A stretch of DNA of 64,000 nucleotides from a virus: IMG/VR virus record IMGVR_UViG_3300035180_001778, positions 186,001-250,000 of that record; one strand, 5' to 3'. The position numbers and the translations under genes are program-made. Shown piece after piece: positions 14,338 to 62,168 of this stretch. A model generated the notes under the pieces. That model worked only from the letters and a program-made list of their open reading frames with translations. It had not been told where the DNA came from and did no database searches. The stretch's first letter is position 1. The number at the start of each line of letters is the position of its first letter.

Positions 14338-16176
14338 TCAACCAAATCGATCCTCACCCTCAGCTTCAGGCGCAGCCGTCATCTTGAGCTTGAGGTAGGT
14401 GGCGATCTTCTCCGCGACGTCCGTCGAGTCCGCCAGCTTTTGACCCACCGCACCGTAGATGCCGCGCATGACCTCGTTGAAGGTCGCGTCGTTGGTGGTG
14501 AACATGTCCTTCTCGATCTTGAGCTTGGTGTCGTTCGGGTCGATGTTGAACATTTCCAGGATGACGTCGATCGAAATCGAGCCCTTTTGATAGAGGTTGA
14601 AGAGTGCGTCGTACGTGTCTTGGCTGTCCCGAAGCGGAAGGCGGGTGAACGACAGACGAGGGTAGAGCACGACCTCTTCGCCCCATTCGTCCTTCTCGAC
14701 GAAGCCCATGCGACGGGCAACAGGCTTGAATAGGTACTCCTCGACGTACTCCTGAAGGATCTCCCGAAGGAACAAGTAGCGGGTGTTGATGACCTCCAGC
14801 TTGAGGCGGTCCCCCGAGTAGAGAGACTCCCCCGAGAGGAGCGATTCCGTGACGCCAAGCCCCGCATGGAGCTGGCGATCCGTGATCTCGTACTCTCCCG
14901 AGAGGTCCAAGAGACGGTCCTTCGACCCCATCTCTTCCCAGTGGATCTCGTAGTTGGCCACGATCGAGTAGTCGGGGTCGACCAACGAAAGGTCGACCTG
15001 CTCGCGGAGCTGCTCGCAATCGTCATCCGAGATGTCTTCGGCCCACACGATACGCTTCGGGGTCATCGCCCGGCTGGCGATCTGCGTCTGAGCCTGGCGG
15101 AGCTTCTCTCGGTAGTAGAGGGTCCGGAGGCAGCGATCCAGGATGCTCGCCCCCAGCTCTTCCCCTGCTTGTTTGCGCCCCGTCAGGATGAACGCAAAGC
15201 TCCCCTCATCAGGGTCCGTTCCAAGAGGGATGAGGCGCCCATCCTCGATGTGCTCCCGAACCTCATCCGGAATGTCCGACGCCATTTCCTCAGCGTCAGG
15301 GTCACCCATGCGAGCTTGCTCGACGATGGCCCGATCACGATCCGACGGGATCAGCTCCACACGAAAGCGATCAGAGAACGACCACGCCGTGACTCGGATC
15401 TGATCGACGGGGACGACGATCAGCCGGTCCCACCCCTTGTAGTTCTTCTGGTAGTGCGCGAGTTCCTGCTCTTCACGATCAGGCCGCTCGACCCAGATGT
15501 CTTCCTTCGTTTCGATCGGGTTGCCTTCGTCATCAATCGAGCTTCGAAGCTCGACTTGACGGTCATACCCAATTTCAGACGGCACCTGGACATCGGAGTC
15601 CTCAGCGAAGATGCAGCATGTCCCGTCGAGCCAGTAGTGGTGGACAGCCGTGATGAGCCGCTGGAAGAGCTTCACCTTCTTGCACATCTTCTCGAAGCGC
15701 GAGAGGATGTACTTGCCGTAGTCCTCGGGGCTCTTGAAACCCTTCGGGGTCGTGGTGGGCTTCGGAGTCGCCAGACGAACCTTCGAGAGGGGAAGCTCCG
15801 TGTGCAGGTCGATTGCCTGCCCCACGATCGGATCCGAGTTGTAGAAGTGCTTGTATATCTCCCGCTTCTCTTGGATCGACTGAGGAAGCTCCAGGAAGTC
15901 CGTGGACATCTGGACGGAGAAAGTCTGCTGTGCCCCAGCTTGGACCGTGTTGGAGCCCCCGATGTTGTCCACCGAGAACGCGCCATTCATCGCCGCGGTG
16001 CGGTTGTTTTGACGAAGGGCACGTTGCTGCCGCCGGGCTTCACGCTCGTTGGGGGTGAGGGGGGTTCGACCCCCACCTTCACCCTGCGCAATATGCGGAG
16101 TCGTATGCCGTCGATTTTGCGACGGCATCGAAGTGAAGCGAGTGGTGGCGTTGGAAATTCTACCGCGGGCGGGCAT
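14338..16176 (-). CDS. portal protein
   Basis: 612 aa. After a polar N-terminus, residues about 105-135 read KHFYNSDPIVGQAIDLHTELPL, the typical start of the portal wing, followed by SKVRL, a KLFQRLITAVHHYWLDGTC segment, an RVELIPSDRDRAI strand and the stem/crown helices with LREQVDLSLVDPDYSIV and REILQEYVEEYLFKPVARRMG. Expected to form the dodecameric DNA channel at one vertex and to dock the terminase at 18426-20462. Start chosen at the ATG 8 bp after AGGTCGTG. Confidence 0.85.
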   Translation of the reverse strand: MPARGRISNATTRFTSMPSQNRRHTTPHIAQGEGGGRTPLTPNEREARRQQRALRQNNRTAAMNGAFSVDNIGGSNTVQAGAQQTFSVQMSTDFLELPQSIQEKREIYKHFYNSDPIVGQAIDLHTELPLSKVRLATPKPTTTPKGFKSPEDYGKYILSRFEKMCKKVKLFQRLITAVHHYWLDGTCCIFAEDSDVQVPSEIGYDRQVELRSSIDDEGNPIETKEDIWVERPDREEQELAHYQKNYKGWDRLIVVPVDQIRVTAWSFSDRFRVELIPSDRDRAIVEQARMGDPDAEEMASDIPDEVREHIEDGRLIPLGTDPDEGSFAFILTGRKQAGEELGASILDRCLRTLYYREKLRQAQTQIASRAMTPKRIVWAEDISDDDCEQLREQVDLSLVDPDYSIVANYEIHWEEMGSKDRLLDLSGEYEITDRQLHAGLGVTESLLSGESLYSGDRLKLEVINTRYLFLREILQEYVEEYLFKPVARRMGFVEKDEWGEEVVLYPRLSFTRLPLRDSQDTYDALFNLYQKGSISIDVILEMFNIDPNDTKLKIEKDMFTTNDATFNEVMRGIYGAVGQKLADSTDVAEKIATYLKLKMTAAPEAEGEDRFG

Positions 16177-58042: not shown

Positions 58043-58264
58043 GAAGCGCTCCCCTTTGGGAGGGAGCTTGGACTCGGCGTTTGGGGGTCGTGGCGAGGTG
58101 AAGCGCGAGATCCCCATCCTATGGTCGGGCGGAGAATCCTGTTCGAGGCCTTCCGCGCGACACCGACCGGGGTTCCTGGTTGAGGACTCCCGGCTGTCCA
58201 AGCTCCCTTCCAGAAGGGAGCGCTGTGATCATCCTACAGGTTGATGCCGCTGGGGATCAACCCG
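58043..58264. other. non-coding gap with hairpins
   Basis: No supported gene. Hairpins: 58043-58069 next to the GGTGTA element; GCTCCCTTC/GAAGGGAGC (about 58200-58224), without a T-run; GGTTGAT/ATCAACC around 58240-58262 directly left of the inverted-repeat element. Looks like a processed leader or trailer zone of RNA genes. Confidence 0.5.
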
Positions 58265-58545
58265 TTCGTTCGTATTCTGAGAAGAGTCCCCGAACAACCC
58301 CTTGGGACCAGCCTCAAGGCTGTTCGGGACACCGGGATCTCACCCCCAATGCTCTCTTGCCACGTTTTTCCGTCAGAACACCTGGTCGCGTCCTTGCGGC
58401 ACTCTTCGGAAGTCAGCTCGGTTTACGCCGAGCTGCTCCTCTCCGTGGGGACTGCCTTGTATGGCTCCCATCCCCATTCGAGAGCATTTCATGCTGACCG
58501 TGGGGTTTCCACAGTCGAGAGGACTCTTCTCAGAATACGAACGAA
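58265..58545. repeat. structured RNA candidate closed by 25-bp inverted repeat
   Basis: 58265-58289 is the exact reverse complement of 58521-58545. Inside are nested helices: 290-296 with 321-327, within it 300-304 with 315-319; 348-356 with 480-488 (9 bp AATGCTCTC/GAGAGCATT); and 414-421 with 428-435 (CAGCTCGG hairpin), all numbered from 58000. No ORF is credible on either strand. On the minus strand it begins 2 nt after a tRNA-Trp-like gene. Probably a folded non-coding RNA, possibly processed by RNase III. Confidence 0.7.
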
Positions 58546-58547
58546 AC

Positions 58548-58625
58548 AACCAAGGGCGGATTCGAACCGCCTACCAATGGCGACCCTTTTGGAGAGTGCC
58601 CACCGCACCATGCGATGTCCTTGGT
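58548..58625 (-). tRNA. tRNA-Trp-like (anticodon CCA)
   Basis: Acceptor ACCAAGG/CCTTGGT perfect, T-arm GGCGG-TTCGAAT-CCGCC perfect, anticodon loop CTCCAAA with a weak stem (GCACT/AGGGT), variable loop longer than usual. CCA not encoded. It looks like Trp but its middle is 5 nt too long. Its 5' sequence also pairs with the preceding GAGAGT/ACTCTC, so alternative folds exist. Confidence 0.5.
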
Positions 58626-58930
58626 TAAAAAACTGGGCGTCCTATCACTTAGACGACTCTCGTGAGAGAGGAAGGTGTCGAACCTTCATACCCAACGGGG
58701 TGCCCGATACCAACGGACAGATGGGACTCGAACCCACCTCGACCCCTACTCTAAGAAGTCCGAACACGTTGGAAATTCACAGGTCTGCTTTCCACCGCAG
58801 AGCAAGCTTTAATCGTGTTCAGTCTTCGGTCGCAAGCCAGGGAGTCGAACCCCGCTTCACATCGATCACCTTGGAAGGCTGGCCGCCCGGCCACTTTTCG
58901 TCGATGCCCTGCGATGAGGGTCCTACAACG
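58626..58930 (-). other. tRNA-derived region with three orphan T-arms
   Basis: T-arm signatures occur at 58671-58687 (GAAGG-TTCGACA-CCTTC), 58721-58737 (GTGGG-TTCGAGT-CCCAT) and about 58838-58854 (CGGGG-TTCGACT-CCCTG). No normal acceptor, D-arm and anticodon set can be built for them: neighbouring half-molecules such as GAGAGTCGTCTAAG look like 5' halves. They may be decayed tRNAs or a tRNA-like array. No gene is supported on either strand here. Confidence 0.5.
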
Positions 58931-59402
58931 GGAGGACCTGCCCGATCAACCTCAAAGACTTCTGAATAGTCGATCTGTGTGGCCGCTCAGGTGCAATCAC
59001 GGTAGTCATGTACCGGAGGATTGCCGATCCCGCCGCCTGGGTCTTCGGTCCGGGGGTGCCAGTTCGCCCTCTACGCTGGCACCCTTGTCCTTCCACACAG
59101 AATCAGAAACCTCAAGTCAGACCTACGTGGTCTTGACGTTGGCCGTTCCGGTGAGTCATGTCACCGAGGCTGCTCCCGCGTTGGCGTTGGGGTCTTGGGT
59201 CAGTGTTGGCGTCGAGTATCTTACCCACCTTGGAGGCATGGGTACCTTCTGAGCGCGCTTCTGACTTGTCCCTGCCACGCAGGCCTGACTTGAGGCGTCG
59301 TACTATTCAGTTGTCAATGACCGAGTCGGCTTTCGTTCTCCGTCTCGTAGTAGTTCTACAGTCTGAGTCGTTCCCTGATCAACCTCGGGGTGTTTTTTCT
59401 TG
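58931..59402. other. non-coding stretch, 470 bp
   Basis: No convincing coding frame or tRNA. A 9-bp hairpin GTGCCAG/CTGGCAC lies at about 59055-59086. AACCTC/GAGGTT with a T-run loop (59375-59406) precedes the second inverted-repeat element. Small plus-strand frames here have no homology-like features and cross RNA genes. Confidence 0.5.
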
Positions 59403-59551
59403 AGGTTCGGGTTGAGCAGAGCACAACCTTCGTGCTGACTCGAACAGCCACACCCAACCTTGGGATACCGGACTCGAACCGGAATACAGAGGCTTATGCT
59501 GCCCCTGTGAGATACCCTTCTCTCCAGTTGTGCTCTGCTCAACCCGAACCT
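59403..59551. repeat. tRNA-like element closed by 25-bp inverted repeat
   Basis: 59403-59427 is the exact reverse complement of 59527-59551. On the minus strand the interior contains two T-arms (CCGG-TTCGAGT-CCGG and GCTG-TTCGAGT-CAGC), a D-arm-like GAGA-GAAGGGTA-TCTC and a hairpin with loop AGCATAA on a GGGGC/GCCTC stem. So it resembles tRNA parts set on a very long acceptor stem. It starts 2 nt after tRNA-Ser(GGA) on the minus strand, like the element at 58265. Confidence 0.7.
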
Positions 59552-59553
59552 AG

Positions 59554-59638
59554 CGGAAGATAGAGGCGTCGAACCCCGGCAGATAAATCCGCCACACCGT
59601 TTTCCAAACGGGCCTCGCTCCGAGCGAGAATATCTTCC
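59554..59638 (-). tRNA. tRNA-Ser (anticodon GGA)
   Basis: Acceptor GGAAGAT/ATCTTCC perfect, D-arm CTCGCTCGGAGCGAG, anticodon loop TTGGAAA on CCGT/ACGG-based stem, variable arm GGCGGATTTATCTGCC, T-loop TTCGACG. CCA not encoded. Confidence 0.8.
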
Positions 59639-59646
59639 AAAACGTG

Positions 59647-59762
59647 GGGGAGTGTCCAGGAATCGAACCTGGCTAGCTTTTCAGCAGGTCATTGAGAGAA
59701 GGAGCATGTGGCCACATGCTCAAACCTCATAAAAACCCTCGTCTTCCAAGACGAACACTCCC
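59647..59762 (-). other. tRNA-like element, 116 nt
   Basis: Acceptor GGGAGTG/CACTCCC and T-arm CCAGG-TTCGATT-CCTGG are perfect, but the middle is about 40 nt too long and holds hairpins CGTCTTGGAAGACG and a 20-bp palindrome at 59702-59721 (GAGCATGTGG/CCACATGCTC). No normal anticodon arm is evident. Could be a tRNA with an insertion or a mimic. Confidence 0.6.
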
Positions 59763-62079: not shown

Positions 62080-62081
62080 AG

Positions 62082-62168
62082 CGGAAGAAGGAGGAGTCGA
62101 ACCCCGGGCAGGTTTCCCCACCCACTTCGCTTTCCAAGCGAGCCCCGCTCCGAGCAGGAACATCTTCC
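62082..62168 (-). tRNA. tRNA-Ser (anticodon GGA), second copy
   Basis: Acceptor GGAAGAT/TTCTTCC, D-arm-like CTGCTCGGAGCGGG, anticodon stem TCGC/GCGA with loop TTGGAAA, variable arm GTGGGTGGGGAAACCTGCCC, T-loop TTCGACT. CCA not encoded. Duplicate isoacceptor of the gene at 59554. Confidence 0.8.

Follow-up and report, generated by a model that had tools for sequence, protein, structure and literature searches.

Huge phages carry tRNA arrays that are commonly regarded as aids to translation. Y RNAs reportedly lie close to Ro60 in both bacteria and phages. In the alignment of the bacterial Y RNA YrlA (RF02553), a Ro60-binding helix carrying GAAUGC on its 5′ side and CUUGUC on its 3′ side encloses an interior that runs from a T-arm to a D-arm. 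Ro60/TROVE proteins are already known in jumbo phages (PMC7824862), and the GOLLD and ROOL RNAs are large structured phage RNAs found near tRNA islands (PMC12286853). Phage T4 encodes, within its tRNA cluster, a 139-nt RNA that is annotated as stable, species 1 RNA (rnaC).

The locus described here belongs to an IMG/VR phage record of 350,469 bases (G000), of which a 64-kb stretch, positions 186001–250000, was analysed and is called the window. The record encodes GroEL, a ribonucleotide reductase and a Dda-like helicase. Its tRNA array, on the minus strand, is reached by the end of the window, extends to ~265.7 kb and contains ~45 tRNAs, together with a tmRNA whose tag is ANDNALVPMQMAA; no RNase P RNA was found in G000. 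The window holds 13 T-arms on the minus strand, all inside the array, and one on the plus strand. Between the tRNAs lies a 149-nt element (59403–59551) whose ends form a perfect 25-bp inverted repeat and which is very probably the gene of a stable non-coding RNA, predicted to be tRNA-like on a 25-bp handle. The reading to which we assign a probability of about one half is that of a lineage-specific tRNA-mimic RNA, which is freed from the array by tRNA processing and engages tRNA-binding proteins.

Closing repeat and internal arms

An earlier note on this DNA had described a 25-bp terminal inverted repeat that starts 2 nt after a minus-strand tRNA-Ser and encloses D-arm, anticodon-like and T-arm hairpins, as if a tRNA had been placed on an enlarged acceptor stem. 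The repeat is real: its two 25-nt arms, separated by 99 nt, are 100% complementary, whereas in 300 Markov simulations of this region the perfect inverted repeats reached 16 nt at most. The minus-strand RNA folds with −84.2 kcal/mol (z = −8.8 against dinucleotide shuffles). When a T-arm is defined as a TTCRANY loop on a stem of at least 4 bp, one or more are found in 0.14% of simulated 99-nt interiors, and two in none of 100,000. The combination of the 25-bp repeat and the arm set is not a chance product.

The D, anticodon and T arms are present on the tRNA-coding strand only (Table 1). On this strand the 5′ arm is followed by TG, the D-arm-like hairpin, A, the anticodon-like hairpin, TATT and the first T-arm, and then by 19 nt, the second T-arm, ACGAAG and the 3′ arm, which leaves the second T-arm 6 nt ahead of the 3′ arm. 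The spacers TG, A and TATT are near the arm spacing of class I tRNAs. The anticodon-like stem is a perfect helix of 7 bp, compared with 5 in a tRNA, and its 7-nt loop has CAU at positions 34–36 and a G, not a U, at position 33. The TATCCC that follows the first T-arm has no pairing partner, and a 7-bp acceptor stem would lack its 5′ half; in the predicted fold, the 25-bp helix substitutes for such a stem. The image of a tRNA on an enlarged acceptor stem agrees well with the fold and the pair probabilities, and the hairpins listed in the earlier note are present, with the second T-arm left uncertain by its pair probability. The G at position 33 and the 25-bp stem argue against a role as a translating tRNA.

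Two conventional identities were rejected. A canonical tRNA (RF00005) was called neither by ARAGORN nor by the Rfam model, and the stem has 25 bp, not the 7 bp of an acceptor stem. An intrinsic terminator would require a U-run beyond the 25-bp stem, and none is found on either strand, where CAAGAAAAAAC (minus) and AGCGGAAG (plus) follow.

The start 2 nt after tRNA-Ser is exact and is read directly from the sequence: the discriminator G of the tRNA is the complement of 59554, and it is followed by CT (59553–59552) and by the repeat from 59551. ARAGORN gave no call for this tRNA, which cmscan with Rfam found as a tRNA-Sec-like match (35.6 bits, 59555–59638); it is a paralogue of the tRNA-Ser(GGA) at 62081–62168 (82% over 49 nt). 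A perfect 25-bp inverted repeat could also form a cruciform or a protein site, and thus work at the DNA level as a replication, packaging or recombination hairpin, but an RNA better suits both the 99-nt interior, whose tRNA arms are strand-specific, and the position, which is fixed exactly by tRNA ends, and we regard the DNA-level role as extremely unlikely.

Unusual tRNA-like genes are found elsewhere in the array. An aberrant tRNA-like RNA at 59640–59762 of the window (minus) has a 7-bp acceptor stem and a good T-arm, without a recognisable D-arm, and contains a 16-nt near-palindromic hairpin. Two oversized tRNA-like genes (L010:7433–7566 and L010:8006–8143, minus; 257.4 and 258.0 kb of the genome) have in common an insert of ~70 nt within their variable regions (GAGCGAAAGCTCC CAGTACCACACCTCG ... 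GTTCTTACAAGT), and a third expanded gene of this kind lies at L010:7680–7945.

Table 1 Features of the element and of its surroundings in the window
Feature	Position	Strand	Remarks
tRNA-Ser(GGA)	59554–59638	minus	directly upstream of the element; no encoded CCA
5′ arm of 25-bp closing stem	59527–59551	minus	pair probability ~1.0
D-arm-like hairpin, GAGA-GAAGGGTA-TCTC	59509–59524	minus	pair probability 0.73
Anticodon-arm-like hairpin, CAGGGGC-AGCATAA-GCCTCTG	59487–59507	minus	pair probability 1.0
First T-arm, CCGG-TTCGAGT-CCGG	59468–59482	minus	pair probability 0.97–0.99
Second T-arm, GCTG-TTCGAGT-CAGC	59434–59448	minus	pair probability 0.33–0.53, competing pairings
3′ arm of 25-bp closing stem	59403–59427	minus	perfect complement of 5′ arm
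Other RNA with perfect 25-bp inverted repeat, 281 nt	58265–58545	minus	multi-branched; fold z = −9.15
180-nt element with 29-nt closing inverted repeat, 90% complementary	58045–58224	minus	fold z = −6.25; repeat arms 58045–58073/58196–58224

Relatives and other long-stem RNAs

The region is present at 100% identity over 16 kb in a separately assembled contig (IMGVR_UViG_3300035181_001045). The repeat is therefore not a mis-assembly of a single contig, although an identical contig does not amount to independent conservation. The same contig was the only match to the exact stem pattern across all IMG/VR and the only one returned by protein scans using the neighbouring genes; nhmmer and blastn searches with this and the other elements found no homologue of it in 1.74 Mb of related loci. 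The element is single copy in the G000 genome, its similarity to rRNA is limited to matches of 13–15 nt, at chance level, and Rfam searched over the whole cluster at permissive thresholds gave, of note, tRNA-type matches only. A GroEL profile recovered ~28 related huge phages (G001–G027), and the tRNA arrays of about ten of them were compared.

The 281-nt RNA begins 0 nt after tRNA-Trp (58546–58627) and has no T-arm. The earlier note took it and the 149-nt element, with the same repeat length and the same placement, as a sign of a common system. The equal repeat length stands and the placement differs (0 against 2 nt); no homology connects the two, which have unrelated stems, different lengths (149 and 281 nt) and T-arms in one only. 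The idea does hold in the wider sense that structured RNAs 0–5 nt after tRNAs recur in this group of phages. A further long-stem RNA, outside the window at 252177–252315 of the genome, begins 0 nt after tRNA-Leu and is closed by 24 bp with small interruptions; the stem sequences of all three are mutually unrelated. An additional structured inter-tRNA region was observed at 58930–59340 of the window (minus; z = −4.7), with closing repeats at 58952–58970/59302–59320, and Rfam gave no match for it or for the 180-nt element.

These comparisons bear on the possibility of a small, MITE-like mobile element with terminal inverted repeats. The perfect terminal repeats, the compact size and the restriction to one lineage would be in keeping with it, but the 149- and 281-nt elements have unrelated terminal repeats and different flanks, neither has a target-site duplication, and the 149-nt one is present once in the genome. 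The MITE identity, which we consider highly improbable, was rejected for the lack of target-site duplications and of common repeats and for the single copy.

The stem might also merely punctuate the precursor, either as a long RNase III site at which the array transcript is cut apart or as a shield of the tRNA-Ser 3′ end, the interior then being a decaying tRNA copy. A helix of 25 bp, about two helical turns, has the usual length of an RNase III substrate, stems abut tRNA ends both here and at 58545, and the array contains other odd or incomplete tRNA-like copies. However, two T-arms, a D-arm-like hairpin and a perfect 7-bp anticodon-like stem exceed what is expected of a decaying copy, and the majority of the tRNA junctions have no such stem, so that we hold punctuation alone to be rather unlikely.

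The architecture itself was searched for in ~1.7 Mb of related sequence with a descriptor consisting of a T-arm, at most 8 nt, and then a long helix that extends back beyond the body. Only two loci scored well above the threshold of 13, the 149-nt element (25) and L111:9928–10068 of phage G006 (19.8); one further match, in two overlapping loci, spans a whole tRNA and is likely an artefact, and each of three shuffles gave one match at this threshold. The G006 RNA is 141 nt long, with a near-perfect 24-nt closing stem on which the T-arm sits directly, and is located between tRNA-Thr and tRNA-Glu, which are 3–7 nt away. It differs in that no sequence similarity was found, in having a single T-arm, and in a minimum-energy fold without a D-arm, which appears in an alternative fold only. 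What the two have in common, as far as the predicted folds go, is the T-arm on a long stem alone. More inter-tRNA RNAs with closing stems of 15–27 nt are found at L013:10307–10456, L100:17798–17962 and L099:16258–16382, the last of which is a Y RNA whose stem is extended; that in L100 has a GAATGC-like motif. This gradient suggests that inter-tRNA RNAs of the phage group may repeatedly have gained a long closing stem.

YrlA-type RNAs in sister phages

A permissive Rfam scan of L013 revealed full-length YrlA matches between tRNAs, together with an RNase P RNA (262 bits). A good alignment was obtained for 14 of these phage RNAs, in which 17 of the 22 predicted pairs show compensatory changes, and a covariance model built from them found ~45 copies of varying completeness in seven phages; the 14 seed RNAs match the model by construction, the remaining copies do not. 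Of the 47 full-model matches, 38 begin within 9 nt of the upstream tRNA end, and for 33 the next tRNA is no more than 14 nt from their own end. The sister-phage arrays contain dozens of YrlA-type genes, usually 0–5 nt after a tRNA, and in L013, L096–L104 and others these RNAs were seen interleaved with tRNAs, in at least seven huge phages. Their Rfam scores (24–55 bits) are below the curated threshold of 69, and the name YrlA-type is therefore the best one. Partial YrlA matches at tRNA–tRNA junctions were discarded, since a T-arm and the D-arm that opens the following tRNA suffice for a score, and control genomes match too.

Full-length Ro60 (phrog_850) is encoded in five of the phages (G003, G014, G018, G025 and G026), one of which was compared and matches RSR 2nvo (E = 9.5e-13). 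RNase P RNA of class A (259–300 bits) is present in the arrays of G001, G003, G006 and G012 (e.g. L013:7054–7396), and at least three of these four carriers have YrlA-type RNAs nearby; RNase P is not mentioned in the main text of the huge-phage paper (PMC7162821). Separately, two Y-RNA-type RNAs, at L013:10530–10760 (minus, G001) and L104 ~15680–15870 (minus, G026), were observed to contain in their interior a stretch matching 23S rRNA helix 69/70, ATAACGGTCCTAAGGTAGCGA, which agrees with E. coli 23S positions ~1913–1936 at 21/21 and 23/24 nt; in each RNA a hairpin and TAGCGAYGG come next. By its sequence, it looks like an rRNA mimic within a Y RNA.

Could the 149-nt element be a diverged Y RNA of the YrlA type that binds Ro60? 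Its slot after a tRNA is the same and its interior is tRNA-like; the sister phages abound in Y RNAs, some of which have extended outer stems, as in the L099 and L100 RNAs above. On the other hand, the GAAUGC/CUUGUC motif is absent from its stem and from the G000 array, and its parts come in the order D, anticodon-like, T, T, whereas YrlA has a T-arm, an acceptor-like hairpin and a D-arm. The phage-Y covariance model aligned to its T-arm part only (model positions 42–93, 11.7 bits, filters off), and no Ro60 (PF05731, phrog_850) was found in the 350-kb G000, a record that may be incomplete and whose host may supply Ro60. Membership (RF02553) was rejected on four counts with Rfam and the clade-specific model, and we consider Y RNA descent very unlikely.

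The two carriers of a long-acceptor RNA, G000 and G006, have neither Ro60 nor clear Y RNAs in the sequence searched, a coincidence that is a hint from two incomplete records. A more novel reading is that of a new class of phage non-coding RNA, a tRNA mimic that does not depend on Ro60 and is borne on a double-stranded "super-acceptor" stem; it would replace Y RNAs in the Ro60-less G000 and G006 and would titrate or scaffold tRNA-processing or tRNA-cleaving proteins during infection. We regard this proposal as unlikely.

Proposed role and comparison with known systems

For the lineage-specific tRNA mimic that we favour, strand and spacing suggest that the element would be transcribed together with the minus-strand tRNA array. 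The RNA would then fold into D-, anticodon- and T-type arms on the 25-bp helix, which stands where a tRNA has its 7-bp acceptor stem. Maturation of the tRNA-Ser 3′ end would produce the 5′ end of the RNA, if the 0–5-nt slot rule of the sister-phage Y RNAs applies here, and the 25-bp duplex may serve as a natural RNase III substrate for trimming or as a cap against exonucleases. Judging by its arms, the product would be a tRNA mimic, most likely binding proteins that recognise tRNAs, such as processing, modifying or cleaving enzymes, possibly as a decoy or scaffold. Its mode of action may follow that of bacterial Y RNAs and, perhaps, of T4 species 1 RNA. Of the examples given in the earlier note, decoys or processing guides, a decoy would fit the data as well as other tRNA-mimic roles would, and nothing observed speaks for a guide.

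The pattern at the level of the array, tRNAs with Y RNAs, RNase P RNA and long-stem RNAs, outweighs the single element in interest. The arrays resemble composite RNA operons whose tRNAs are interspersed with RNAs that mimic or process tRNAs, namely Y RNAs, RNase P RNA, tmRNA and orphan long-stem RNAs. If the mimics interact with RNA-repair systems or with defences directed at tRNAs, they would form a testable layer of counter-defence; if they merely punctuate processing, they would show how dozens of tRNAs are matured from one transcript.

Compared with GOLLD and ROOL, which measure hundreds of nucleotides and have other folds, the element, without an Rfam match, is alike in being a structured phage RNA near tRNAs. 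With YrlA it shares ends paired in a long helix, a tRNA-mimic interior with T- and D-arms and, considering the YrlA-type RNAs of the sister phages, the slot 0–5 nt after a tRNA; the difference lies in the helix, which in YrlA binds Ro60 and has the GAAUGC/CUUGUC loops and here is an uninterrupted 25 bp. T4 species 1 RNA, which has one T-arm, resembles the element in the place of a T-arm near the 3′ end, in a length of ~140 nt and in being encoded in a phage tRNA cluster, but its predicted fold lacks a long perfect closing stem and it is located at the downstream end of the cluster, beside rnaD. The element is best read as a variant within the already-known tRNA-mimic RNAs of phage tRNA clusters.
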